From a virus, in IMG/VR virus record IMGVR_UViG_3300037234_000491, positions 1 to 25,980 of that record: a stretch of DNA of 25,980 nt; one strand, written 5' to 3'. Under the pieces are notes generated by a model that had not been told where the DNA came from, made no database searches, and was given only the letters and a program-made list of their open reading frames with translations. Below are positions 2,163 to 25,918 of this stretch, piece by piece. Made by a program: the position numbers and the translations under genes. Each line of letters opens with the position of its first letter. The stretch's first letter is position 1.

Positions 2163-2513
2163 GCCAGAATAAAACCCACCAATAAGTCCAACGACTAAAC
2201 CCCAGAAAAATATTTCAAGACTAGCCATAAAACTATCGGTGTTTTGCTCCTTCAAGGATGTTTCTTGTTTCGTTATCAATATCTGATCGAGTGCTGTTAT
2301 TTGCTCTGAGATTGTCTGTTTTTTTTCCAAGAGACTTAATTCTGTTTCTAATTCCTGTATCGTTAACTTGTCGCTTGCTGTTAGACTTTCTGAGGTCTTT
2401 TGTAACTCCATTAATCTTTCGTATGCTTCGTCTGTTAATACGTATTCTGAAAATAATGATTGCGATAATAACAGCGACAATAACAATAATGATAATAGCT
2501 TTTTCCATAACAT
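2145..2513 (-). CDS. Spanin-like protein: signal, coiled coil, C-terminal TM (122 aa)
   Basis: The N-terminus (MLWKK plus a Leu/Ser-rich core to about residue 22) is a signal peptide or anchor. Residues 25-90 are a charged helical region with heptad-like Leu/Ile spacing (TIQELETELSLLEKK). Residues about 98-118 form a Gly-rich hydrophobic C-terminal membrane segment. This order matches unimolecular spanins, which bridge the inner and outer membranes during phage lysis. Unlike those, there is no lipobox cysteine, and in fact no cysteine at all, so the N-terminal attachment is unclear. The ATG directly abuts the TAA of the upstream small membrane protein gene, with GGGGG as a poor RBS, so translation is probably coupled. 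Another frame within this gene is also open and has an N-terminal TM (see findings). Confidence 0.6.
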   Translation of the reverse strand: MLWKKLLSLLLLSLLLSQSLFSEYVLTDEAYERLMELQKTSESLTASDKLTIQELETELSLLEKKQTISEQITALDQILITKQETSLKEQNTDSFMASLEIFFWGLVVGLIGGFYSGFKLGL

Positions 2514-4023: not shown

Positions 4024-4188
4024 TTAGTCGATTGAAAACCATCTTATTTCTTTTGTCGGTAGCCATCTATTTTCACCTGATTCTAATTTCATCCATAAAT
4101 GATCTTTTCCAGGTCTTACCTCAGTACATGTAAAATCTTCCATCATGCCGTCAAACCATCTTACTTTAACTATTTTATTCGCTTTCAT
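4024..4188 (-). CDS. Small basic protein of unknown function (54 aa)
   Basis: The start at 4188 is chosen because AAGGA lies eight nt upstream; a longer ORF from 4248 has no RBS and would overlap the membrane-regulator gene by 74 nt. The protein (MKANKIVKVRWFDGMMEDFT...) is rich in Trp, Lys and beta-prone segments and looks like a small SH3- or Tudor-like barrel, but I recognise no family. Its start overlaps the end of the six-TM regulator gene by 14 nt, so the two are probably coexpressed. Confidence 0.55.
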   Translation of the reverse strand: MKANKIVKVRWFDGMMEDFTCTEVRPGKDHLWMKLESGENRWLPTKEIRWFSID

Positions 4189-4894
4189 TCTTAATTCCTT
4201 TATTACTAATTTCAACCTGTTTATTGTACCAGACTCCAAGAGCTTCACCGTTTACAATTTCTAATTCTTTTTTAACTTTAGCAATTTCAGTATTGATAAT
4301 ATCAACTGTAAATTTATCTCTATCAAGTCCTAATCTCCATAGAGTAGAATCTTTTACGCTGGAAGGGATTTGTTTTCGTGGAATATCCATAGCTAAGTAT
4401 TTTAGTATTAATAATTGTCGTTTTGTTAATGGTGTTATTTTTGAAAGTTTTTCTATGTTTTCTGGTTGTTTGATAACTGCTAAGTATAGGAATAATAAAA
4501 TACCAGATATACCTATTATTAAAAGTACTAAGTTTTCAAAATCTACCCTTTCATAAATAAAGAAATTTAGAACTAAAAATACGGGCAATCCAGTAATTAT
4601 TGCTAATATCGTTTTAGAATTATTAAAATATAGCAATGCAATAAAAAATCCAATTACAGGTTCTAAACCAATAGAGGGTCCACTCAAAATATAACCTACA
4701 GAAAACAAGTAAAACGAAATAGAATATAAAGCCCTACTCTCTTTTAAGATCGCTATTCCTAAAAATACAGCAATAACTAATGTAATCTGGTTCAATCCTA
4801 TACCTTTAAATATTATTTTTTGAATATGGATTGACGATAACAACAGCAAAAGAGATATAATAATTGATTTTAAAATCTTATTCGTTACTATCAT
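4175..4894 (-). CDS. Six-TM protein with LuxR-like C-terminal domain (239 aa)
   Basis: Hydrophobic helices occur at about residues 8-25, 34-50, 55-72, 76-92, 95-114 and 120-141. An even number of spans from a cytoplasmic N-terminus would place the C-terminal hundred residues in the cytoplasm. That tail begins LTKRQLLILKYLAMDIPRKQ (from residue 156), close to the LTxRExxIL helix opening LuxR/GerE HTH domains; the later DSTLWRLGLDRDKFTVDII could supply the recognition helix but is divergent. I infer a membrane-tethered regulator that might sense the membrane or infection state. It could instead be a plain membrane protein with a helical tail. The ATG abuts the stop of the 101-aa gene and has no clear RBS, so translation is likely coupled. 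Confidence 0.5.
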   Translation of the reverse strand: MIVTNKILKSIIISLLLLLSSIHIQKIIFKGIGLNQITLVIAVFLGIAILKESRALYSISFYLFSVGYILSGPSIGLEPVIGFFIALLYFNNSKTILAIITGLPVFLVLNFFIYERVDFENLVLLIIGISGILLFLYLAVIKQPENIEKLSKITPLTKRQLLILKYLAMDIPRKQIPSSVKDSTLWRLGLDRDKFTVDIINTEIAKVKKELEIVNGEALGVWYNKQVEISNKGIKNESE

Positions 4895-5203: not shown

Positions 5204-5428
5204 TTATTTTTTCCTTATTTTAGTATACTTAATATTGATGATCTTATCAGCGTCAGCTCTGAGCCAATAAACTTTCCTGTCTGGATCGTAATGTGGTGTT
5301 ATTATTACTCCTCTTTTTTTTAAGAGATTGATTCTATAATTAATTGCTTGATACGTCTTAAGCTTTGTTTTTTCAATTATAGAATCGACCGTCTCATAAT
5401 CTTTACCTAATACTAATTTTTCGTCCAT
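5204..5428 (-). CDS. Small winged-helix/HTH-like protein (74 aa)
   Basis: Residues about 12-40 (ETVDSIIEKTKLKTYQAINY) fit two helices of an HTH. They are followed by a Lys/Arg-rich helix (RINLLKKRGVII) and a beta wing (DPDRKVYWLRAD), the outline of a compact winged helix. It is probably a DNA-binding regulator, but the family is not identified. No RBS precedes the ATG; instead a near-consensus promoter ends six nt before it, so the mRNA should be leaderless. It heads the regulatory-looking cluster between the tail genes and the lysis genes. Confidence 0.6.
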   Translation of the reverse strand: MDEKLVLGKDYETVDSIIEKTKLKTYQAINYRINLLKKRGVIITPHYDPDRKVYWLRADADKIINIKYTKIRKK

Positions 5429-5434
5429 ACGATA

Positions 5435-5463
5435 AATATAGCTTGTAACTTGTTATATGTCAA
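5435..5463 (-). promoter_or_regulatory. Near-consensus promoter giving a leaderless mRNA
   Basis: On the minus strand TTGACA, 17 nt and TATATT are followed after six nt (TATCGT) by the ATG of the HTH gene. TAATC lies directly upstream of the -35, as in the three T-tract promoters at 6719, 9363 and 12908, and its TAA is the stop codon of the preceding gene. The predicted transcription start coincides with the ATG. Confidence 0.75.
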
Positions 5464-5465
5464 GA

Positions 5466-5999
5466 TTAAAGGGCGCCGACAATCTCGTTTATAGTAATTG
5501 CAGTTCTTGAAAGAGTAACAGTACCACCACCTTCAGATGTTATGTAAACTTCAATATAGTCAGTGTCTGATAATTGCACCGCACCAGCAAAACCGATAGC
5601 GCCTATGTCTGCTCCACCGGATATAAATCTATCAATTCCGATGCCTTCTTCCAGTACACCGTTTTTATACATTTCTACAGTTACAATATGATTACTTGCA
5701 CTTGACGACATACTTGTGGAAAAGTGACCAAGAAACCATATATTAGAACGACCTGGAGCATCAAAAAAGTAGCGAGAGTTAGGTATATCAAGAGTAAAAT
5801 CCTTAATAGTTTTGGCGGTTGTTGGGACTAGTAACTTTGTTGGGGTTCCTGCAACTAATGCAGGGGTAGTATATGGGGATGCTACAGGTAAATAAGTGTC
5901 TAATCTTGATGGGTTTGCTACAACTACAGGAGGTGCAGCACCGCTTGGTGTATCTGCCTGACTTCCTATTCGTTTAATGTTTCTATTTTTTTCTATCAT
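5466..5999 (-). CDS. Tail-associated protein with TNF/C1q-like jelly-roll domain (177 aa)
   Basis: Residues about 1-70 are Pro/Ala/Thr-rich and flexible (PSGAAPPVVVANPSRLDTYL). Residues about 75-177 look like a beta-sandwich of the TNF/C1q type seen on phage surface proteins: RYFFDAPGRSNIWFLGHFS, then VTVEMYKNGVLEEGIGIDRF, then LSDTDYIEVYITSEGGGTVT. Such domains trimerise and often mediate surface binding. It is inferred to be a virion appendage. The gene overlaps the 96-aa gene by four nt (ATGA), which indicates coupled expression. Confidence 0.6.
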   Translation of the reverse strand: MIEKNRNIKRIGSQADTPSGAAPPVVVANPSRLDTYLPVASPYTTPALVAGTPTKLLVPTTAKTIKDFTLDIPNSRYFFDAPGRSNIWFLGHFSTSMSSSASNHIVTVEMYKNGVLEEGIGIDRFISGGADIGAIGFAGAVQLSDTDYIEVYITSEGGGTVTLSRTAITINEIVGAL

Positions 6000-6307: not shown

Positions 6308-6712
6308 TTAAATAAATTTTCCTGTACTACTTTCACCATCAAAATAATACCTCTGCCCATCTTTTAAAGTAATTAAAGCAGTCCATGATATCCTATCTGC
6401 AGAACGATTAAATGATTCAGCTTTTATTGATTTTGCGTCACCGTTTACAATCATAGTATTCAAACATGCTTCAATTTTCTGTGAGTTCCGTTTTAAAAAG
6501 TTTGATGTGATTGAGAGGCCGTTTAATTCTTCGTAGCCACCTGGGATTTGAGAGTTTGGAGGTTCGATTAAATTACCCCAATAGCCCGAATCTGTGCCGA
6601 TAAGAATTAAGATTTCATTATTTAAACCAGATACCCTCTCATAGTCTCCACCACGTTTGACTAGATCACCGTTTTTGATTGCTGGTTCACCGTTATATTG
6701 ACTGTTATTCAT
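6308..6712 (-). CDS. Mu gp46-like baseplate protein (134 aa)
   Basis: The order of motifs matches phage gp46: an early GDLV strand (residues about 15-18), a central GYWGN (about 43-47), an ITSNFLKRNSQKIEACLNTM helix, then alternating strands ending in LKDGQRYYFDG. In Mu-like phages gp46 is a baseplate component encoded beside baseplate J. Here it lies about 2.8 kb past J, beyond the fibre gene and a plus-strand cassette. The mRNA should be leaderless: no RBS exists and TATAAT ends six nt before the ATG. Confidence 0.65.
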   Translation of the reverse strand: MNNSQYNGEPAIKNGDLVKRGGDYERVSGLNNEILILIGTDSGYWGNLIEPPNSQIPGGYEELNGLSITSNFLKRNSQKIEACLNTMIVNGDAKSIKAESFNRSADRISWTALITLKDGQRYYFDGESSTGKFI

Positions 6713-6718
6713 GGGTTT

Positions 6719-6747
6719 ATTATAGCATGATAAAATAAAATAAAAAA
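6719..6747 (-). promoter_or_regulatory. Conserved restart promoter, copy 3 (gp46-like gene)
   Basis: On the minus strand TAATC, TTTTTT, a 17-nt spacer ending ATCATGC, TATAAT, AAACCC and ATG occur in series. The 17-nt spacing, the extended -10 and the six-nt gap to ATG are the same as in copies 9363-9391 and 12908-12936. The predicted start site is the A of the ATG. Confidence 0.8.
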
Positions 6748-6771
6748 GATTAGTTATAAGGTGTTATATAG

Positions 6772-6800
6772 TAGACATTAGTTTATATATGAAGTATTAT
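6772..6800 (+). promoter_or_regulatory. Promoter of the first plus-strand cassette
   Basis: TAGACA, 17 nt and TATTAT lie 24 nt upstream of the ATG at 6825, leaving a short leader with AAGGGG. It is back to back with the minus-strand promoter at 6719-6747. Confidence 0.6.
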
Positions 6801-6824
6801 GTAGATGGTTGAAGGGGTTAAGAG

Positions 6825-7106
6825 ATGGAAAAAAGATTAGAAGATAAACAAAAAGTTATGGATTACCTTGGAAGAGTTCAAGCTAAAATTTTAAAAGAAA
6901 ACAAATATTCTGTAATTTTTATTTTTAATGGTAAAACTTGTAAATTATCTTTCAGGAAAGGTAAAAGAAGTTTAGGAAGAACAAAAATGATTGATTATGA
7001 CTGTACTTTGTTATCTTTAATAATAAATGACGAATATTGGTGTACATTTGAAGGCTTATATAATATAGAATTGTCGCTAACAAGGTTATTAAAAACAATT
7101 TACTAA
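6825..7106 (+). CDS. Hypothetical protein of plus-strand cassette 1 (93 aa)
   Basis: This is a basic soluble protein (MEKRLEDKQKVMDYLGRVQA...) with an N-terminal helix and then beta-rich sequence including FNGKTCKLSFRKGKR and several aromatic residues. There is no signal peptide, TM or family that I recognise. AAGGGG eight nt upstream supports the start. It is transcribed against the surrounding late genes from its own promoter and is followed by a predicted outer-membrane protein, so the pair looks like a moron. Confidence 0.6.
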   Translation: MEKRLEDKQKVMDYLGRVQAKILKENKYSVIFIFNGKTCKLSFRKGKRSLGRTKMIDYDCTLLSLIINDEYWCTFEGLYNIELSLTRLLKTIY

Positions 7107-7110
7107 ATAA

Positions 7111-7122
7111 GCCCTTCGGGGC
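7111..7122 (+). other. UUCG-tetraloop hairpin between cassette 1 genes
   Basis: GCCC-TTCG-GGGC forms a four-base-pair stem closed by the very stable UUCG tetraloop, four nt after one stop and immediately before the AAGGAG of the next gene. There is no U-tract, so it is more likely an mRNA-stability or translation-control element than a full terminator. Confidence 0.45.
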
Positions 7123-7133
7123 AAGGAGATGAT

Positions 7134-7562
7134 ATGAAGAGAATTATTTTAGTTGGGTTAATGTGTTTGGGGATGTCGGTTTTTGGGATTGATCATGGGT
7201 TAATTAGTGGGTTTGAGGTTGGATGGAATATCCAACAATCGAGGCTTACAGAAGATTCAGGAACATCTCTTTATGAAAATTATGACAATAGTCTTTATTT
7301 AAGGTTAAAATCAGGATATAGAGTTAATAACCTTAGAATCATAGGAACTTATGAAAACACGTTACAGGTATTAAAAATAGATAAATACAATCCAATTCAA
7401 GATACATATAGAATTGATATAAATTACACAATAGGGTTTATATCAATAGGGTTTTTTCATTCGTGTAATCATCCTGTAGAAACGCAAGAGGACGATAGAA
7501 ATATATATTCAAACAGTGGGCATCGTGCCTTATACTTGAGTTTCTACAGAGAGTTTAACTAA
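7134..7562 (+). CDS. Predicted outer-membrane / exported beta protein (142 aa)
   Basis: The N-terminus (MKRIILVGLMCLGMSVFG) is a classical signal peptide, with cleavage probably near residue 18. The rest is amphipathic beta: alternating stretches such as NSLYLRLKSGYRVNNLRIIG and YRIDINYTIGFISIGFF, with a C-terminal strand LYLSFYREFN rich in aromatics, as in small outer-membrane barrels. A His-Ser-Cys-Asn-His motif (about residues 110-114) is unexplained. By analogy with Lom- or OmpX-like morons it may change the host surface; no residue-level family match is claimed. The RBS is AAGGAG, six nt upstream. The stop overlaps the stop of the convergent fibre gene by four nt, with no terminator between them. 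Confidence 0.6.
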   Translation: MKRIILVGLMCLGMSVFGIDHGLISGFEVGWNIQQSRLTEDSGTSLYENYDNSLYLRLKSGYRVNNLRIIGTYENTLQVLKIDKYNPIQDTYRIDINYTIGFISIGFFHSCNHPVETQEDDRNIYSNSGHRALYLSFYREFN

Positions 7563-8473
7563 TTTAACCGTGTGTAGGTTACTGAAAGATAATCCCCTGA
7601 ATCCATGTAAAGGATAACATGCCCGTCTCCCACCGAAGTAGGGACAGAAGTGACTTCTGTTCTTGCTTCGCTCTGATCCCAAAAAATATAACTATACGAA
7701 TAATCAACCGCAATTGCTTCGTCTGGCATAGATACGGATATTGAGTTTAAAGCTGCCTTATAGGTCTTTATTCCTGTTTGTTTTACTTCTAACGACGGTA
7801 ACACTTGTGGTGTACCAAAATTAATAAAAGGATGGACTATATTTTCTGGTACTACATCATTATCACCAAATCCAGTATTAACACTACTAAAAACAACATC
7901 ATCAGTAGGATTTAAACTTTGTCCGACTTTATCAAGCAACCCTTGAATAATCCCTTTAATATTCCCAAGTCCAGTAATGATTACATCTAAGAAAGTCGGC
8001 GTTGCTGTATTTTTAACATCCTGATCAACTAGATTTTCTAAATCATTAGCCCGACCCTGTAAAATATTAATATCCTGATCATTACTATTAATATTTTGCG
8101 TGTTGGTATTTATATTCTGAGCATTTGTATTTATACCCTGCCCATTAACCCCAATCGCATTAGAGTTATTATTTATATCAATCCCATTCTGATCAATTGC
8201 ATTACCATTCTGGTTAATATTTCCACCATTATTATCAATAGCCTGAGAATTATTATTAATATCATTTTTATTCGCTGTAATCGCTGCCTGATTATATGCT
8301 ATCTGGGCGAATTCCACAAAACTTAAAACCCATGCTCTGATTGCTGAGAATAGAATCCACTTTTGTTTACGGACTCCGATTCCTGAAGGTTGGTTAATTA
8401 AAAATCCGTCTTGATTTTCTGTTATCGCTTGTGAATCTTCATATGAATCCTTTTCATATATTTTATTTGCCAT
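7559..8473 (-). CDS. Tail fibre protein with Asn-rich heptad stalk (304 aa)
   Basis: Residues 1-60 form the N-terminal part (NQPSGIGVRKQKWILFSAIR...), probably attaching to the baseplate. Residues 63-139 are eleven seven-residue repeats with Ile at position three and Asn-rich surroundings, expected to form a trimeric coiled-coil stalk. A hinge and a beta-rich C-terminal head (about 180-304, including SVSMPDEAIAVDYSYSY) follow. It is encoded directly after the gp48-like gene, the usual place for a tail fibre in Mu- and P2-type phages. The RBS is GAGGAG, nine nt upstream. Only two nt separate it from the preceding gene. Confidence 0.75.
   Translation of the reverse strand: MANKIYEKDSYEDSQAITENQDGFLINQPSGIGVRKQKWILFSAIRAWVLSFVEFAQIAYNQAAITANKNDINNNSQAIDNNGGNINQNGNAIDQNGIDINNNSNAIGVNGQGINTNAQNINTNTQNINSNDQDINILQGRANDLENLVDQDVKNTATPTFLDVIITGLGNIKGIIQGLLDKVGQSLNPTDDVVFSSVNTGFGDNDVVPENIVHPFINFGTPQVLPSLEVKQTGIKTYKAALNSISVSMPDEAIAVDYSYSYIFWDQSEARTEVTSVPTSVGDGHVILYMDSGDYLSVTYTRLN
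8057..8287 (-). repeat. Eleven tandem Asn-rich heptads in the fibre gene
   Basis: The encoded units include NDINNNS, QAIDNNG, GNINQNG, NAIDQNG, IDINNNS, QNINTNT and QNINSND. Every unit has Ile at position three. The DNA is correspondingly repetitive (ATTAATATC / AACAAT-type units), which makes this stretch prone to unit gain or loss. Confidence 0.85.
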
Positions 8474-8474
8474 G

Positions 8475-9356
8475 TTAAATCTCCTCTGTTGTCTGTGATA
8501 CTATTGTAAATCCGTCGTCTGTTGTAAATACGAATCCGTCGTCTGTTATTATTTCCTCGTCAAATAGTGGTAGTGGTTCTGCAAAGAATACTACTTTTGA
8601 TATTGCCCACATGAAATTTGGTTTATTCTTATATGTTAAAAATTCATATGCTTCTTTTAATTCAATTGGGATTTCTGCAAAGTTGCCGTCTAGCCCTTCA
8701 ATAATGTATATTAATGGCCATGTCCATGTGTCATCTGGAATTATTAATTTTGGTGGGTCTAATCTACCACCTTCGAAAGAACCAAATACGGTATCAATAC
8801 CAAAAACAACATCACCGAATACAGTTAAATAATTATTTGCGGGATCACCTGGGCGACCATCTGCAAAAATAGTTGGGACAAAATCTGCTTCGATTTCTGA
8901 AAAACCACCGAATACGGAATCTACACCGAAAACTATCTCACCGAATACTGAAGTGAAAACGTCAAATACCGGTTTGGCTTCTGCTATTACTCTTGGATCT
9001 TCTCCCGGGACTAATGGCCTTGCAATAACAGGGATTCCAGATAATTCATACATATGGTTCATCCCGTCGAAACTTGCAACCTCTTCACGTGACCATACCG
9101 CTTTTAATCTATCTCGCCTTTGAGTGTCCGTTAAAAGCTCCCCAGCTGGTAGTCGGTATGTTTCTTCCCATTCGTTAAATAGTGTCGTTGTAGTGGGGTA
9201 GAAATCGGTTACAATAGATTTACCGTCCTGATAATCTCTATTTGCTTGTACTGATAAACCGTCCGAGATTTCACGCATTACACCAGACATCATACCTATC
9301 CATGTAAAACCAGTTGGGAATAAGGATTTTAAAGTTTTTTCGATTAAATTATCCAT
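8475..9356 (-). CDS. Mu gp48 / YmfQ-like baseplate protein (DUF2313-type, 293 aa)
   Basis: The N-terminal third matches the gp48 pattern: LFPTG near residue 12, a long helical stretch, DFYPTTTTLFNEWEETYRLP (residues 51-70), and a basic RRDRLKAVW helix. In Mu-like phages this protein joins the baseplate wedge and connects the fibres. The middle carries two copies of a VFGxxVFGxDxVFG block (residues 137-152 and 179-194), and the C-terminus has a doubled TDDGF. The protein is longer than typical members because of these insertions. There is no RBS: the ATG follows a TATAAT by six nt, so a leaderless mRNA is predicted. Confidence 0.75.
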   Translation of the reverse strand: MDNLIEKTLKSLFPTGFTWIGMMSGVMREISDGLSVQANRDYQDGKSIVTDFYPTTTTLFNEWEETYRLPAGELLTDTQRRDRLKAVWSREEVASFDGMNHMYELSGIPVIARPLVPGEDPRVIAEAKPVFDVFTSVFGEIVFGVDSVFGGFSEIEADFVPTIFADGRPGDPANNYLTVFGDVVFGIDTVFGSFEGGRLDPPKLIIPDDTWTWPLIYIIEGLDGNFAEIPIELKEAYEFLTYKNKPNFMWAISKVVFFAEPLPLFDEEIITDDGFVFTTDDGFTIVSQTTEEI

Positions 9357-9362
9357 GTGATT

Positions 9363-9391
9363 ATTATAGCATGATAGTGATTATTAAAAAA
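9363..9391 (-). promoter_or_regulatory. Conserved restart promoter, copy 2 (gp48-like gene)
   Basis: On the minus strand TAATC, TTTTTT, 17 nt ending ATCATGC, TATAAT and AATCAC precede the ATG. It lies just after the terminator at 9423-9447, so transcription that stops after baseplate J can be restarted here. Confidence 0.8.
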
Positions 9392-9422
9392 GATTAGATA
9401 TATTATCCCTTTATAAACAAAA

Positions 9423-9447
9423 AACACCCTGTATGTAGCAGGGTGTT
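9423..9447 (-). terminator. Terminator after baseplate J
   Basis: A nine-base-pair perfect stem (AACACCCTG / CAGGGTGTT) with a seven-nt loop is followed on the minus strand by TTTTTTGTTT. On the plus strand no T-run follows, so it acts on the minus strand, about 70 nt past the J stop codon. Confidence 0.8.
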
Positions 9448-9514
9448 AATGAAATACTAAGGAGATATTATGAAAGAAAAATGAATGTAAATAAAGTATA
9501 CACCAATAATTTAA

Positions 9515-10669
9515 TTATGTATATGAAATATTCGCTTTTGCACGATACCCCGGGTTTAATATATAAATCTCTTCTTGTGGGAATCCCTGTTTAATTAGGT
9601 CGATATCGGTAAATCTTCCAGTTTCTCCGACTTGTGCATTAATTGTGTTTTGTGCAACTGTTGTAATTTCGACCTCTTCTACTGCTCCCTGATTACTTGG
9701 AGTTAGACCAAGTATATATGGATTTCTGGTTTTGAAATAATTATTAATTGATGCTTCTATTTTAGTTTTTAGTGATGCGGATAATGCGGGTACACCGTCG
9801 GTTATTACTACGTCGTAAGTATCGATTAAACTTGCAAATGCTTCGATTCTCTTTTCTGCGTTTGGTAGTAGGTAGGACGACCACATGACGTTTTTACCTG
9901 CTGTTAAGTAGTGATCTTCAACGGCTTGTAATTGTGGTGCTGTTGGGATTCCATCTACGTTATCGTCTGCTACGCAAAATAGTTCTATTCTGCCTGGATA
10001 TATTTGACTAACGTATGGATATGCTCTGGTTATTCCGGGTACTGATATGGTTTCGTTGAAAAACCATGCTGAAGTTCCGATATTTGGAGGGAATGCAGCA
10101 AGTTGTATTATTGCAGCACGCCATGACTCTATTGACTCTGGTTCGGTTCCGACGGTATTAATTGCGGATATAACAGCGGTTGAGTTTATACCGGGAATTG
10201 TTGTGGTTAATGTTATCTCGTCACCAACTTGCAGTGTTCCCTCTGCTCCGAATTGATTTGCTAAAACTGCAATAGATACCTGACCACCTGAGATTAATCC
10301 ACCTGTTTTAGTTGAATAGTTAATACCGTTGTCAGCAATCCAACGTGGACCGGTAGATCCAGAACCGACAGTTACACCATCTGAGCCAGTTACAGTTGCC
10401 TGTAATTCTGCCTGAGTTCCTTTTCCCCGTGGTCTGTTAACAAGTTGTGCCCAGAATGGTAAACCCACAAATTCGGTTGCGGTTTGGGGAAAACATTCTT
10501 TTCTTTGATCGACATTATGTATTTGACAGAGCGTTGCTAGTCCCGCTTGAGCGTTCGCAAGTATCCTATTATATGCCACATCTACAGCGGGCGTGTTTTG
10601 ATTAGTTTTACTCTCTATATCTGTTAAACTGTTTTGTCTGTTTTCTTGTATGCTTTTTACGTTTACCAC
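9515..10669 (-). CDS. Baseplate J-like protein (384 aa)
   Basis: This is the gp47/gpJ baseplate wedge protein. The N-terminal part includes ATEFVGLPFWAQLVNRPRGKGT and a beta block with TGPRWIADNG. The centre has the typical ESIESWRAAIIQLAAFPPNIGTxxWF arrangement followed by VYPYV-like TRAYPYVSQIYPGRIELF. The C-terminal third has the NAEKRIEAF and SLKTKIEASINNYF helices of the family. The start codon is GTG with AAGGAG 11 nt upstream. The gene follows the tape measure directly, with no identifiable hub, spike or gp43-45 genes between, which is unusual. The terminator at 9423-9447 lies downstream. Confidence 0.85.
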   Translation of the reverse strand: MVNVKSIQENRQNSLTDIESKTNQNTPAVDVAYNRILANAQAGLATLCQIHNVDQRKECFPQTATEFVGLPFWAQLVNRPRGKGTQAELQATVTGSDGVTVGSGSTGPRWIADNGINYSTKTGGLISGGQVSIAVLANQFGAEGTLQVGDEITLTTTIPGINSTAVISAINTVGTEPESIESWRAAIIQLAAFPPNIGTSAWFFNETISVPGITRAYPYVSQIYPGRIELFCVADDNVDGIPTAPQLQAVEDHYLTAGKNVMWSSYLLPNAEKRIEAFASLIDTYDVVITDGVPALSASLKTKIEASINNYFKTRNPYILGLTPSNQGAVEEVEITTVAQNTINAQVGETGRFTDIDLIKQGFPQEEIYILNPGYRAKANISYT

Positions 10670-10690
10670 TTTGTATTTATCTCCTTAATA

Positions 10691-12901
10691 TCAATTCCCA
10701 AACATCGGTGTATATCGAACCGTTGTACCAATCGGCATGTTTCTACTTTCTTTTACTTCTGCACCACCATTAGATTTGTCATTTATGTTTATATCCAGTG
10801 TACCAGCTCCACCTGGTCTGTCTGGGTCGTATGATGGTCTTGGGGTTTCTGCGTTTTGATTTACTGCAGTTGGGAATGTTGGTTGTGGTGTTGACGGGGC
10901 ATTATCTTTAAAATCAACTAAATTATTTCTGATCTCTTCAATTTTTAATGCTCCACCTTTTGCGAGATTGCCGACACCCGGGATATTTGATACCATTTCC
11001 AAGAATGCTTGTATTGGTGCTAACAGTGCAGATAGTATAGTTTTACCGATATTTAAAATTCCTGATAAAATACTCCCATCTGTAAATGCTGTTTTGAGAT
11101 CTCCCCATTTATCAATTAAAAATCCTATTAGTTCTAAAGCTTTATTGATTCCAAAATTAAACCCTTCCGAAATAGCTTTACCTATTTCCACAAACCATGC
11201 GCCGATATCTTTTAAAATTGGCGTGAATATTTCTGCCATAAATGCACCGAACATTTTTAATAATTCCCAAGCTTTTTGAACTGGTATCATTAGACCTCTA
11301 TTAAAGGCTTCTGCTATTGCATACATTCCAGCGACAAAGCCTTCTGTACTAAATGCATCTTTAATTTTACCGAGACTTTTTACTATTTCAATAATACCGG
11401 ATACTAAGAATCCAATAGGACCAAGTAAGAACATAAACTTTTGACCGACATTTGCGACCCATGTCCACGCTATTTTTAGAGCGCTTGTAACTTTATCCCA
11501 GTTCAACGCCATCCAGACTATTGCAGCACCTAGAGCGAAAACAGCGGTTATTATCATTCCAACTGGAGTTGCTGTTAATGCTTTTCCGAAAACCTGTGTT
11601 GCAATTGTTAAAATTCCCATTGCAATTGATACCGCTTTAATACCACCGGCGAATGCAAGTAATATTTTCCAGTTTTTGGCTAGGAATCCTATTCCTTTTT
11701 TAAGACCGTCAAATACCTTTATTATTGGATTAAGATCTATATTTTGTATTTTAGATATTACGGCTTCTAAATCTATTTTGTCGAATTCGTCCAGAATTTT
11801 ATTAACTAATGGAGAGATTGAATCGCCTATTTTAGTAAGAGTGTTGTCTAATTTTACTTTCATTTTCTCGAATCGGAATCCAAGAGTGCTTGTCATTTTC
11901 TCGAATGCTCTATCTGTTGCACCTGCCGAGTTCTGGACTGCTTCGATTGAATCTTTAAATACTTTCGATCCGTTTTTAGTTAATGCTAAAACTGTATTTA
12001 ATGCACGTACTGAACCGAATAATTGCGCCATTTTTTCAGAACTTCCACCTGTTGCATCTGAAGCATCTTCTAAGAATTTTTGGAATCCCTTTGTTTTTAA
12101 TGCTGCTGCTGAGAAATCTAAACCTAATTTTTTTGCAAGTTTTGAAGCTTGTTCTGATGGTTTAATAATATTTGAAAGTGCTGCTTTAACTCCAACAAAG
12201 GCTTCTGGGGTCTGAACACCGACTTTTGTTAGTGCTGCAATAGAACCAAATAGTTGATCAGTTGTGACACCTAAAGCCGATGCTATAGGAATAGTTCCAC
12301 CCATGGATTGTGCCATTTCATCAAAAGTAGTTTTACCGAAATTTTGAGTTGCAAACATTTGATCTGATATTTTGGTTGCATTATCTACAGACATTTCATA
12401 AGCGTTTAATATAGAGGTTAATCCATCAACGGCGGTTGCTGTTTCTGTAAATCCTCCGACTGCTGCTTTTGCTGATAATGCGACAAAATCAAGAGCTTTT
12501 GCGGAATCTGTTACACCTGCTGAAATTGCCTGATATTGTGCTTCTGCTAATTCAAGTGCTGGAATACCTAAACTACTTGAGAGGTCTAAAAGCTTTTTCC
12601 TTTGCATCTCAAAGGACATTGTTGTCGAGTCGGCTATTGTCTCCACTTTTGCCATTGCAGACTGGAAAGCTATATAATTTTTAGTAGCTAGTCCGAAAGT
12701 TGCAATCAATGCAGTAAGCCCGATCATAGCAACTCTGTTTATTGACTGATTAACCTTCCCAAATGAACGAGATATCATGGAATTTTTATCTGCCATATTT
12801 TGGGCTAGTCTGGAGAAACCACGTTGCATTTTTGATTGAGTTTTTAAAACTTGCGAACCGTCCGACTTGTAATCGGTGTGAATAATAAACCTTCTGCTCA
12901 T
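10691..12901 (-). CDS. Tail tape measure protein, TP901 type (736 aa)
   Basis: The protein sets tail length and fills the tail tube before DNA ejection. Residues about 1-55 are basic, with repeated Ser/Arg/Gln. Residues about 70-330 are the conserved TP901 domain: FQSAMAKVETIADSTTMSFE, LAEAQYQAISAGVTDS, GGFTETATAVDGLTS, NFGKTTFDEMAQSMGGTIP and GVQTPEAFVGVKAALSNII. Hydrophobic helices follow at about 410-470 and again near 490-510, then a Pro/Asn-rich tail. The mRNA should be leaderless: no RBS is present and the conserved promoter ends six nt before the ATG. A plus-strand cassette separates it from the chaperone gene, which is normally adjacent. Confidence 0.9.
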   Translation of the reverse strand: MSRRFIIHTDYKSDGSQVLKTQSKMQRGFSRLAQNMADKNSMISRSFGKVNQSINRVAMIGLTALIATFGLATKNYIAFQSAMAKVETIADSTTMSFEMQRKKLLDLSSSLGIPALELAEAQYQAISAGVTDSAKALDFVALSAKAAVGGFTETATAVDGLTSILNAYEMSVDNATKISDQMFATQNFGKTTFDEMAQSMGGTIPIASALGVTTDQLFGSIAALTKVGVQTPEAFVGVKAALSNIIKPSEQASKLAKKLGLDFSAAALKTKGFQKFLEDASDATGGSSEKMAQLFGSVRALNTVLALTKNGSKVFKDSIEAVQNSAGATDRAFEKMTSTLGFRFEKMKVKLDNTLTKIGDSISPLVNKILDEFDKIDLEAVISKIQNIDLNPIIKVFDGLKKGIGFLAKNWKILLAFAGGIKAVSIAMGILTIATQVFGKALTATPVGMIITAVFALGAAIVWMALNWDKVTSALKIAWTWVANVGQKFMFLLGPIGFLVSGIIEIVKSLGKIKDAFSTEGFVAGMYAIAEAFNRGLMIPVQKAWELLKMFGAFMAEIFTPILKDIGAWFVEIGKAISEGFNFGINKALELIGFLIDKWGDLKTAFTDGSILSGILNIGKTILSALLAPIQAFLEMVSNIPGVGNLAKGGALKIEEIRNNLVDFKDNAPSTPQPTFPTAVNQNAETPRPSYDPDRPGGAGTLDININDKSNGGAEVKESRNMPIGTTVRYTPMFGN

Positions 12902-12907
12902 GGGTTT

Positions 12908-12936
12908 ATTATAGCATGATTATTATTTTTAAAAAA
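12908..12936 (-). promoter_or_regulatory. Conserved restart promoter, copy 1 (tape measure gene)
   Basis: On the minus strand CAATC, TTTTTT, 17 nt ending ATCATGC, TATAAT, AAACCC and ATG occur in series. The -10 region and AAACCC are identical to copy 3. It lies back to back with the plus-strand promoter at 12951-12979. Confidence 0.8.
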
Positions 12937-12950
12937 GATTGAATAAAATA

Positions 12951-12979
12951 TTGATAAATGTACGTTTTTGTATTAGTAT
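12951..12979 (+). promoter_or_regulatory. Promoter of the modification cassette
   Basis: TTGATA, 17 nt and TAGTAT are followed after seven nt by the ATG at 12987. There is no room for an RBS, so this transcript too should begin at or next to the start codon. Confidence 0.6.
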
Positions 12980-12986
12980 TGTGTAT

Positions 12987-13127
12987 ATGAAAGAACGAAT
13001 AGTTATAGATACTAATTCAGAAAACAAAACTGAGTTAAAGAGATTGGCGAAAAAAGAGGGTTTGACATTATCGGCGTATATGGTGTTGAAGGGTTTGAAT
13101 AGATTGAAGGATGGGAAGAGTGAATGA
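12987..13127 (+). CDS. Small ribbon-helix-helix (CopG/Arc-like) protein (46 aa)
   Basis: The start at 12987 is preferred because the longer frame from 12939 would begin upstream of the -35 region. The protein begins with a beta-like KERIVIDTNSEN strand, then ELKRLAKKEGLTLSAYMVLK (residues about 17-36), the two-helix signature of minimal RHH DNA-binding proteins. It probably binds DNA as a dimer and may regulate its own cassette, since its promoter is divergent from the tape measure promoter. It heads a four-gene plus-strand unit ending in a Mom-like gene. Confidence 0.65.
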   Translation: MKERIVIDTNSENKTELKRLAKKEGLTLSAYMVLKGLNRLKDGKSE

Positions 13128-13150
13128 GATTGAAATTTATGGGGTAGAGG

Positions 13151-13321
13151 TTGTTGAGGATAAGCCCGTTATTAGAAGTGAAAGTAAAAGATTTTACAGA
13201 AGAGAGATTCTGGGCAGTAGAATGTCCAAAATGTGAAGAAATGATTGATATGAATGAATTACCTGAAGATGGTGATGTTATTTTTTGCGAGCAATGTTTA
13301 ACAAATATTAAGGTGGGATAA
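13151..13321 (+). CDS. Small zinc-ribbon protein 1, possible Com analogue (about 56 aa)
   Basis: The frame encodes a zinc-ribbon pair: VECPKCEEM, then about 16 residues, then FCEQC, ending IKVG. The N-terminal limit is uncertain. TTG at 13151 (shown) has GGGG eight nt upstream; GTG at 13178 is an alternative giving 47 aa. An ORF in another frame (GTG 13120 to TGA 13236) overlaps the start and reads VNEIEIYGVEVVEDKPVI, a plausible real N-terminus, so an indel or +1 frameshift may join the two (see findings). In phage Mu the zinc-finger protein Com, encoded just upstream of mom, activates mom translation; here the position and cysteine pattern are similar, while the equivalence is inferred. Confidence 0.55.
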   Translation: MLRISPLLEVKVKDFTEERFWAVECPKCEEMIDMNELPEDGDVIFCEQCLTNIKVG

Positions 13322-13322
13322 T

Positions 13323-13502
13323 ATGGATAATATAAATAGCATAGAGGATTTAGAAATAATTGAAGATAGTAGATATTGTAATAATTGTGGAGCAGAGTTT
13401 AAGGATTTGATTTACGATAGAACAGTTGCAAATGGAGAGATTTATCATTGTTCCATTTGCAAAGAAGAACATATCTTTCCTGAAGTAGATGATTTTTTAT
13501 GA
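13323..13502 (+). CDS. Small zinc-ribbon protein 2, possible Com analogue (59 aa)
   Basis: An acidic N-terminus (MDNINSIEDLEIIED) is followed by YCNNCGAEF, about 18 residues, and HCSICKEEH, a clear CxxC...CxxC zinc ribbon. AAGGTGGG lies eight nt upstream of the ATG. Its TGA overlaps the ATG of the Mom-like gene in ATGA form, and that gene has no RBS of its own, so translation of the Mom-like protein must depend on translation of this gene or on its product. This mirrors com-mom control in Mu, although this protein is more acidic than Mu Com. Confidence 0.65.
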   Translation: MDNINSIEDLEIIEDSRYCNNCGAEFKDLIYDRTVANGEIYHCSICKEEHIFPEVDDFL

Positions 13503-14098
13503 AAATAAAAGAGATGAAAGTTGAGCTATGCCAAAGAATAGAGATAAAAGACTTTGTTGAAAAATGGCATTACTCAAAGTCTATAAATGGCCTTATGTCA
13601 GACTATTGCTTTAAGTTGACTTATGATAATAAAATGATTGGAGCTATGATATATGGCCGTGTAGCAATGGCTAATGCATGGAAGAAGTACACATCAAAAC
13701 CAGAAGATTTAATTGAGCTTAGAAGATTGTGTTGCATAGATGATACGCCAAAGAATACGGAAAGTTATTTTATTGGAAAAACATTAAGATATCTTAAAAA
13801 TAATACTGATATAAAAACCGTTGTTTCTTATGCTGATACAATGCAAGGCCATGAGGGTATAATATACAAGGCCTCTAATTTTAAATACTTAGGATTAACA
13901 GCAAAAGGGAAAGTCATAATGCATGGTGAAAAACAATATCATGATAAAGCTGTAAGAACTATGTATAAAGGAAAATTAAAACCATTTGCATCAAGATTAA
14001 AGGAGGCACTAGAAAACGGAACCGCTTATTACAAGAAAACAACTGGGAAGCATATTTATATATTTAATATTGAAAAGAAATACTATAGGAGAGGTTAA
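13499..14098 (+). CDS. Mom-like adenine modification protein (199 aa)
   Basis: This is a predicted Mom-family protein. In phage Mu, Mom turns adenines into N6-carbamoylmethyladenine, which protects phage DNA from restriction. Family-like blocks appear in order: WHYSKS (residues 23-28), MIGAMIYGR (46-54), LIELRRLCC (71-79), SYFIGKTLRYL (89-99), VVSYADTMQGHEGIIYKASN (108-127) and FKYLG (128-132), consistent with the GNAT-like Mom fold. The C-terminus is basic. Length is close to that of Mu Mom. The ATG overlaps the upstream zinc-ribbon gene by four nt and lacks an RBS. The base modified, and whether it matches Mu, cannot be read from sequence. A terminator follows at once. Confidence 0.8.
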   Translation: MKIKEMKVELCQRIEIKDFVEKWHYSKSINGLMSDYCFKLTYDNKMIGAMIYGRVAMANAWKKYTSKPEDLIELRRLCCIDDTPKNTESYFIGKTLRYLKNNTDIKTVVSYADTMQGHEGIIYKASNFKYLGLTAKGKVIMHGEKQYHDKAVRTMYKGKLKPFASRLKEALENGTAYYKKTTGKHIYIFNIEKKYYRRG

Positions 14099-14103
14099 CA
14101 AAA

Positions 14104-14129
14104 AAAAAGGAGCAATCAAGCTCCTTTTT
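14104..14129. terminator. Bidirectional terminator between Mom-like gene and chaperone
   Basis: The ten-base-pair stem AAAAAGGAGC / GCTCCTTTTT has a six-nt loop. U-tracts exist on both sides: five T on the plus strand and eight on the minus. It ends the plus-strand cassette and the minus-strand sheath-tube-chaperone operon, and overlaps the stop codon of the frameshifted chaperone extension. Confidence 0.85.
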
Positions 14130-23176: not shown

Positions 23177-23206
23177 AGTTTATAATACTCCTATTTTTGT
23201 TTTTTT

Positions 23207-25231
23207 TCAAGACAGTAATATTTCCCATAATCGGGCGTGTTTTTCTGCTAGTTCTATCATTGTTACTTTTGGGATTCCAAAATAATTATATGCCCATTTC
23301 CAGAATTCCCTCTCGTTCGTGGTTTCCTCTTCGTTTGCAATAGATCTTTCATACATAAATACGTTTTTGGCTTGTTTGGCGTATAATGCACAGTCAAAAG
23401 TTTCGTTTGATCGGCCCCCTGCATCCCATTCGTAATGATCGTGTTTACCGTGTTTGATTACTGATATAGGCCGTTCTGTCGTTAATTGTTCAAAATATTT
23501 GGCCTCTAAATCGTGGGGAAACATCATGTATCCAGCGGGGTATTCCTCTGTCATTGGGTCCTGTCTTAATCCTAGCGTGTTGTATAAATCTCTTTTGAGT
23601 GAGTTGTTATTTAATTCATATAGGGGGAGTGGTCCACCATTCCCAGATTGATATCCTGATAAATCTATTTTATTAAATACGCCTTTTCGAGTTTTCCCGA
23701 TTCCCATAACAGGGAAAATATTTAATCCACGGTTGCAAAATTTCTTTACTTGGTCTGTTTGGTGTCTGGAGTCAATAAATGTCATAGTTGGAGCGATTGG
23801 GAAAACGTCTTTTTTTATCATTTTCTTAAATTTTGCAAATGCTCCTGATCTATAATCCGTTACATCTCCATAAATTATATAATGATCTATTAACCACTCT
23901 CTATCATTTAGGCCATATCCCCATAAACTAGCTTCTATTCTGGATTCTTTACCTTTGACCCATTTACCGTCTCTTTTGTTTCCGGCCTGTACATCTGCAC
24001 CAAGCATTGTAAATAGTGGGGTTCCTTCTTTTTGACTTGGTAACTGTCCTTTCTTATAGGTTCCTTTTAAAATATGACACGTTTCTGCTGGTGGTGCTTC
24101 TGAATAATCAGAGAATGGTTCCCCCAGTCTAAGGTTTACAAAAGCTTGCATCTCTTCAGAGTCGTTCAGTGCTGAAACAAATTCTTTTGCTAACTGATAC
24201 CAAGTGTCGAACCCTGGACCCGCATACATGGCCGAAAACTGATAAGATTTCGTTAAAGGCTCCGCTTTATCTACATTGTGAGGTATCCACTTTGCTGTAC
24301 CGCCTAATTCTTCACATAATAAAAAGTCTGGTTTTTGCTCTTCTTTGATGTGGTAATTACAATTTTTATCTTGGCATTCATAATAAACTGAGTCCTCGAT
24401 TACATGGCCATGTTCGTCTTTATTGTATTTTAAATGTTTCCAAATTAACCGCTGTGAGTGGCCACAATCTGGACACTCGATATAATAATATCGCTGGTCC
24501 CCTTTTAAGAACTCTGTCCAGATGTGAGAATTATCCTTATATATTGGGGTTGAGATATCTAAAATTTTACGCCTACCTGAGAAGGTCATTGATCTAATAA
24601 ACGCTACTTTTTTAACGTTACCTTGCCCACCACCTTTTTGAGCTGTTAAAACTAACTCTTCAGCATCTTCTATACAAATTATTTGATAAGATTGATTTCT
24701 TAACTGGTTTAATTGTGCAAATGTAATTATATCAAGTTTTCCACCTACCCATGATTTACGACCAATAGCGTCACCGTTTCCACCGTGCTGGCTATTTTTC
24801 TTATAGGAAGACTTTAATTTTAATCCTGACGAATCTATCATAGGACCTAATCTGGTTTCATCCCATTTCTTTAAAAACTCATTTGTTGGGACCATACAAA
24901 GAACGGGACCTGGATCTTCGGCAATTTTAAAAAGTATCAAGTTTTCAGTACTACCAGCCGTGGCCCCCATTTGACCGGCTTTGCAAATATTTACAATTTC
25001 AGTAACATCTTGAGGGCTTAACACCATCGCTATTTCATACATGTATGAGGATTTTGCAAATTTATATTTACCTGGAAATGGTGAAGTTTTTGGAAGGACT
25101 CTAATCCTTTCGGCTGTCTCCACTACATTTGAGGTTATTTTTGTAGTAGGTAAAGAAAGTAATTGTTTTTCTAACCATTCCAAATCTTGCAAGTGTGGTC
25201 TTTTTATTTTTAAATATTTAGTATTACTCAT
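23207..25231 (-). CDS. Large terminase subunit, lambda gpA-like (674 aa)
   Basis: The DNA-packaging motor and nuclease. Residues 84-91 (KAGQMGAT) match the gpA-type Walker A (KSSQVGGT-like), and DPGPVLCMVPT follows. IICIEDAEEL (184-193) is the Walker B. Two cysteine pairs (CPDC at 253 and CQDKNC at 286) fit the family's zinc-finger insertion. The nuclease domain shows GADVQ (411-415), IDSRHQTD (486-493) and a late FDCALYA, giving the acidic metal site. Length matches gpA (about 640-670). The start overlaps the small subunit gene by eight nt. Confidence 0.93.
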   Translation of the reverse strand: MSNTKYLKIKRPHLQDLEWLEKQLLSLPTTKITSNVVETAERIRVLPKTSPFPGKYKFAKSSYMYEIAMVLSPQDVTEIVNICKAGQMGATAGSTENLILFKIAEDPGPVLCMVPTNEFLKKWDETRLGPMIDSSGLKLKSSYKKNSQHGGNGDAIGRKSWVGGKLDIITFAQLNQLRNQSYQIICIEDAEELVLTAQKGGGQGNVKKVAFIRSMTFSGRRKILDISTPIYKDNSHIWTEFLKGDQRYYYIECPDCGHSQRLIWKHLKYNKDEHGHVIEDSVYYECQDKNCNYHIKEEQKPDFLLCEELGGTAKWIPHNVDKAEPLTKSYQFSAMYAGPGFDTWYQLAKEFVSALNDSEEMQAFVNLRLGEPFSDYSEAPPAETCHILKGTYKKGQLPSQKEGTPLFTMLGADVQAGNKRDGKWVKGKESRIEASLWGYGLNDREWLIDHYIIYGDVTDYRSGAFAKFKKMIKKDVFPIAPTMTFIDSRHQTDQVKKFCNRGLNIFPVMGIGKTRKGVFNKIDLSGYQSGNGGPLPLYELNNNSLKRDLYNTLGLRQDPMTEEYPAGYMMFPHDLEAKYFEQLTTERPISVIKHGKHDHYEWDAGGRSNETFDCALYAKQAKNVFMYERSIANEEETTNEREFWKWAYNYFGIPKVTMIELAEKHARLWEILLS

Positions 25232-25880: not shown

Positions 25881-25888
25881 ATAGGTAA

Positions 25889-25918
25889 AGTATAGCATTT
25901 TAAATATGTGTTGGTCAA
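25889..25918 (-). promoter_or_regulatory. Promoter of the terminase/head operon
   Basis: On the minus strand TTGACC, 18 nt and TATACT with an extended TGC precede the ATG at 25880 by eight nt. The ATGCTATA core resembles the restart promoters at 6719, 9363 and 12908, but the -35 is near consensus. The A-rich TTTAC repeat just upstream may act as an UP element. Confidence 0.7.

Follow-up and report, generated by a model that had tools for sequence, protein, structure and literature searches.

Promoters abutting the start codons of tail genes predict leaderless late mRNAs in two related phages

The window analyzed here is the 25,980-base virus record IMGVR_UViG_3300037234_000491 (positions 1 to 25,980), with no larger assembly behind it. 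Its minus strand carries the late region of a contractile-tail phage (terminase, portal, protease, capsid, sheath, tape measure, and baseplate), including the genes for the tape measure protein (PF10145), baseplate J (PF04865), a gp46-like protein (phrog_180), and a gp48-like protein, whose match to PF10076 is weak and under the curated cut-off and which belongs to phrog_203 (baseplate wedge). The plus strand holds a Mom-type modification cassette and two small genes, and no RNA family was found in the window. One syntenic relative, IMGVR_UViG_3300043219_000190 (53,301 bp), was retrieved by IMG/VR searches with the tape measure, capsid, sheath, gp48, and baseplate J proteins, with identities to the window of 98% for the capsid, 81% for gp48, 70% for gp46, and 45% for the tape measure protein; beyond it, the same searches yielded just one distant tape measure protein. 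Both phages are uncultured. GenBank phages gave no near match to the window phage, and no host prophage turned up in two scans of GTDB genomes. Coordinates of the relevant features are listed in Table 1.

Table 1. Genes, candidate promoters, and hairpins of the window, with corresponding sites in the relative (G001, its coordinates)
Feature	Position	Strand	Remarks
Tape measure protein, predicted leaderless	10691..12901	-	
gp48-like baseplate wedge protein, predicted leaderless	8475..9356	-	
gp46-like baseplate wedge protein (phrog_180), predicted leaderless	6308..6712	-	
74-aa winged-HTH-like protein, predicted leaderless, possible regulator	5204..5428	-	low-confidence model
Tape measure late-class promoter, CAATC-TTTTTT-17-TGCTATAAT-AAACCC, abuts ATG 12901	12902..12943	-	orthologous site G001:12724-12766 (+)
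gp48-like late-class promoter, abuts ATG 9356	9357..9398	-	orthologous site G001:17247-17289 (+)
gp46-like late-class promoter, abuts ATG 6712	6713..6754	-	orthologous site G001:19454-19495 (+)
Small HTH-like gene promoter, AATC-TTGACA-17-TATATT-6-ATG	5429..5467	-	conserved in relative
Candidate terminase small subunit (TerS) promoter, TTGACC-18-TATACT-8-ATG, start moved to 25880	25881..25918	-	conserved in relative
Promoter of 80-aa gpW-like gene between terminase and portal genes, TTGAAA-17-TATTAT-5-ATG	23177..23210	-	conserved in relative
Terminator-like hairpin just upstream of gp48 restart promoter	9423..9447	-	
Terminator-like hairpin between Mom gene end and upstream late gene end	14104..14129	.	
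Divergent cargo promoter TAGACA-17-TATTAT-GTAGAT, 24 bp from gp46 late promoter	6772..6806	+	leadered, SD-led gene at 6825
Divergent promoter TTGATA-17-TAGTAT-7-ATG (12987), abuts start of 46-aa NikA/ribbon-helix-helix-like gene heading Mom cassette	12951..12986	+	

The original prediction placed minus-strand promoters directly before the tape measure, gp48-like, and gp46-like genes, and all three were found in place, each reading (C/T)AATC-TTTTTT-17-TATAAT-6-ATG. For the three genes in this order, the -35-like TTTTTT occupies positions 12936-12931, 9391-9386, and 6747-6742, and the TATAAT -10 occupies 12913-12908, 9368-9363, and 6724-6719. The 17-nt spacer ends in ATCATGC at all three sites, which also share the 13-mer ATCATGCTATAAT. 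A TGN stands directly before TATAAT in all six late-class sites of the window and the relative (TGCTATAAT), and with TGC ahead of the hexamer the T-tract sites are therefore extended -10 promoters. They lack the TTGACA-like -35 at 16-18 bp of -10/-35 sigma-70 promoters, the TTTTTT at 17 bp matching TTGACA at only two of six bases. The three genes had also been said to lack a Shine-Dalgarno (SD) sequence while most other genes carry one; this was borne out, with the SD absent at 6/6 T-tract sites.

A motif search in relatives, proposed along with the prediction, returned the same box at the same three orthologues of IMGVR_UViG_3300043219_000190 only. Its sites read CACACTTTTTTT...TGCTATAAT-AAAACCT-ATG (tape measure), CAATCTTTTTT...TGCTATAAT-AACCCTT-ATG (gp48), and CAATCTTTTTT...TGCTATAAT-AAAAGT-ATG (gp46), so that the claimed distance of exactly six nucleotides from the -10 to the ATG holds for the three window sites and gives way to 7, 7, and 6 in the relative. 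AATC and the six T's keep a constant register in five of the six sites, while the remaining spacer drifts; at the relative's tape measure site the T-run was retained and AATC lost. A conserved box in the -35 position, as in activator-dependent middle or late phage promoters of the T4 MotA/Mu C type, is present as AATC-TTTTTT at 5/6 sites. Between the two phages, tape measure codons 2-75 comprise 35 identical, 27 synonymous, and 12 changed codons, and gp48 codons 2-16 comprise 10, 4, and 1, respectively; the proteins align from residue 1, the gp46 orthologue having four extra residues. Because the codon changes after the ATG are mostly synonymous and the alignments begin at residue 1, coding starts at these ATGs. 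Downstream start codons with ribosome-binding sites (RBSs), named beforehand as evidence against the prediction, were looked for and not found in this one close relative. The gene of the distant tape measure relative lies inside an operon and is SD-led.

The short motif TATAAT-N6-ATG, with one mismatch allowed, was not enriched (21 seen versus 22 expected from shuffles), and the promoter claim therefore rests on the extended motif and its conservation. TGNTATAAT-N6-7-ATG was seen three times in the window versus 0.09 expected and four times in the relative versus 0.32 expected. A weight matrix built from the window sites and run on the relative ranked the three orthologous sites at the top (39, 33, and 20 bits; next 7.9), as did the reciprocal matrix run on the window (33, 33, and 23 bits; next 10.2). 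Across IMG/VR, ATCATGCTATAAT-N6-ATG matched 99 stretches and AATCTTTTTT-N14-TGCTATAAT matched 16, none of the latter besides the relative being placed 6-7 nt ahead of a long gene's start.

Further promoters abut start codons in the same way. The one assigned beforehand to the HTH gene was confirmed in the sequence, with TTGACA at 5463-5458, a 17-nt spacer, TATATT at 5440-5435, and six nucleotides to ATG 5428, and an AATC box ahead of its -35 in both phages is common to this promoter and the late class. The structure model of the 74-aa product is of low confidence (pLDDT 59; helix-helix-strand-strand). The terminase and modification-cassette promoters are likewise present, leaving eight and seven nucleotides to ATG 25880 and ATG 12987, respectively, and the window copy of the gpW-like gene promoter retains AGGAG within the promoter. 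The HTH, TerS, and gpW-like promoters have a TTGACA-like -35, unlike the T-tract sites, and their near-zero-leader layout occurs in both phages; a minor-tail-like gene at G001:42223 (TGATATAAT-ACCCCC-ATG) adds a case in the relative only. The near-zero-leader layout is broader than the T-tract class, as it includes the HTH, gpW-like, and TerS genes and the relative's tail gene, with other -35 boxes.

In a count over 113 gene starts of both phages, made by hand and with a simple script (window start 17534 is off by 3 nt), the SD was absent in 12 of the 14 starts preceded by a -10 box at a distance of 5-8 nt, versus 11 of the 99 other starts (present in 88/99; Fisher p=2e-8). The 13 candidate genes (six pairs of orthologues plus a single gene from the relative) all start with ATG, and the base before it is C or T in 13/13 compared to 48/100 other genes (-1Y/+1A; p=1.9e-4). 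Sigma-70-type promoters start transcription about 7 nt past the -10, with a preference for a pyrimidine at -1 and a purine at +1; since the ATG follows the -10 after 6-7 nt, its A is the predicted +1. This placement, put forward in the original prediction, draws sequence support from the recurrence at the same three genes, the -1 pyrimidines, the exclusion of SD sequences, and the conserved N-terminal codons. The tape measure, gp48-like, and gp46-like genes of the two phages compared are thus probably (about 0.8) served by leaderless restart promoters. The predicted leader is 0 nt or at most 1-2 nt, the latter being possible where the spacing is 7-8 nt. Strong SD use in both phages argues against a host that makes leaderless mRNA by default.

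Since AATC and the T-tract occupy the place of the -35 and are conserved in register, a factor bound at AATC-TTTTTT, in the manner of T4 middle promoters, is suggested, at about even odds. The activator or alternative sigma factor that had been proposed from the poor -35 is unproven; TGCTATAAT resembles the element read by a housekeeping sigma and could function with little help from a -35. Somewhat less favored are plain extended -10 promoters, constitutive or host-timed and without an activator, at which the T-tract would be AT-rich DNA aiding the polymerase; this alternative concerns regulation only and is compatible with leaderlessness, the mRNAs remaining unchanged. A perfect extended -10 such as TGCTATAAT requires little -35 contact, and the loss of AATC with retention of the T-run at the relative's tape measure site agrees with such promoters. 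Likewise, twenty scanned proteins of the relative and the small HTH proteins included no recognizable sigma factor, RNA polymerase, or known late activator, neither record being known to be complete. Plain promoters explain less well why AATC and the six T's stay fixed in register at 5/6 sites despite spacer drift and why AATC recurs ahead of the HTH -35 in both phages.

Every T-tract site comes after a break in the late operon, either an antisense cassette or a terminator-like hairpin. Antisense cassettes stand ahead of the tape measure and gp46 genes in the window and of the tape measure, gp48, and gp46 genes in the relative; the cargo differs between the two phages, and the window appears to have lost its cassette ahead of gp48. 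Four of the six late promoters are back-to-back with a divergent TAGACA-17-TATTNT-GTAGAT promoter, 23-24 bp separating its -35 from the T-tract; in the relative (L004) these are upstream of the tape measure (10001), gp48 (14524), and gp46 (16730) genes. Promoters of this class have ordinary leaders with SD, two further copies occur on the minus strand of the relative (34266 and 31567), and an exact IMG/VR scan with TAGACAT...GGTATTnTGTAGAT gave no contig besides the window phage and the relative. By this back-to-back arrangement at a fixed gap from promoters of phage-specific cargo, the T-tract sites resemble promoters that restart the late operon where cargo has been inserted. More tentatively, the cargo promoter, the 24 bp, and the late promoter might form a bidirectional unit of fixed geometry for modular insertion, which would permit free swapping of antisense cargo with a late side self-contained to the ATG in some 45 bp, and a phage factor between the -35 boxes might turn the cargo off and the leaderless late genes on.

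The same breaks bear on whether the three mRNAs could instead be leadered, with read-through from upstream late transcription spanning the ATGs, SD-less initiation of the AU-rich/S1 type, and the box as a minor promoter. This is unlikely: the intergenic DNA is AU-rich and SD-less starts occur elsewhere in both genomes, e.g., in overlapping genes, but a terminator or opposing genes stand ahead of the sites, and read-through gives no reason for the constant -10/ATG distance and the -1 pyrimidine. That the repeated 36-mer is no promoter and serves as a protein-binding site or repeat (an operator, or an element for packaging or recombination, at the points where cargo is inserted) is very improbable, since its location at cassette boundaries and its constant 23-24 bp gap to the divergent promoter would fit, but the consensus TATAAT with its TG extension is always oriented into the gene, in a register tied to the ATG, and the SD is missing in exactly these genes.

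In the leaderless restart scheme, for which we infer the start site, leaderless translation, late timing, and bound factor alike, RNA polymerase with a housekeeping-type sigma factor would read the internal late promoters via the perfect extended -10 and re-initiate tail-operon transcription beyond the terminator or antisense cargo cassette. Transcription would begin on the A of the AUG and give leaderless tape measure, gp48-like, and gp46-like mRNAs, to which ribosomes would presumably bind directly at the 5' AUG, the downstream genes of each transcript using ordinary SD sites. The AATC-TTTTTT box that substitutes for the -35 may be bound by a factor from phage or host that restricts the promoters to late infection. 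Each late restart promoter would carry, within about 45 bp, the signals for transcription as well as translation.

Several known systems share parts of this layout. The Thermus phages P23-45 and phiYS40 have leaderless middle and late transcripts; their hosts are thermophiles in which leaderless mRNA is common, whereas the genome of the window phage is otherwise strongly SD-led and has an AATC-T6 box for the -35. T4 middle promoters have a MotA box ahead of an extended -10, with AsiA appropriating sigma, and give leadered mRNAs; alike is the box in the -35 position ahead of an extended -10, in contrast to its different sequence, the lack of a recognized MotA/AsiA homologue, and the predicted absence of leaders. 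Mu late promoters depend on the C protein, several are internal to the tail operon, and the late genes are SD-led; here too, a Mu-like tail operon contains several internal late promoters, but no Mor/C homologue was recognized. The middle and late promoters of P23-45 belong to the extended -10 class, and at T4 middle promoters an upstream box substitutes for the -35 (PMC7403470). Lambda cI (PRM) is named as a leaderless mRNA (PMC9031893) and likewise starts at AUG, but it encodes a single regulator compared to a set of structural genes here. A study of AR9 describes phage transcripts as often leaderless (PMC5312081). Leaderless mRNAs make up about 13% of the total in Lactococcus, where leaders of 4-14 nt were not seen (PMC10986495), which agrees with the all-or-none layout in both phages.

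Given these published transcripts, leaderless mRNA in a phage is no novelty in itself. Phage promoters of the leaderless and extended -10 kinds are already known, and what is new is that they occur together with a non-canonical upstream box and exchangeable antisense cargo in a genome that is otherwise strongly SD-led. Repeated leaderless use for structural genes is unusual in a phage with nearly all other genes RBS-led. By this prediction, an ordinary SD phage would make key tail proteins from leaderless mRNAs. Assembly of its virions would then be linked to leaderless initiation, a mode that could be favored or resisted as translation shifts late in infection. The arrangement would also offer a compact means of breaking a late operon with exchangeable cargo while preserving expression.

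Other features of the window were noted. The Mom cassette (12987-14098, plus strand) begins with the NikA/RHH-like gene and includes two zinc-ribbon-like ORFs, its Mom protein (PF25680) shares about 70% identity with a protein of a Geobacillus phage, and the relative has other genes at this site. The gp48 cargo site (9400-9515, plus strand) contains a stub, AAGGAGATATT-ATG with SD, with a stop three codons on and a terminator adjacent. Near the small HTH gene in both phages, a gene on the minus strand (4175-4894; L004:19111-19755 in the relative) encodes a seemingly membrane-bound phage protein with a C-terminal helix-turn-helix weakly like LuxR/sigma region 4. A pair of overlapping ORFs in different frames and with nearly the same start (2145-2513 and 2233-2508, minus strand; L055:7000-7456 in the relative) occurs in both phages and may be an embedded spanin-like (Rz/Rz1) pair. 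At 75-1094 on the plus strand, a putative lipoprotein with long EYVxxEV-type repeats resembles a lipoprotein of the relative (L129:8773-9735).
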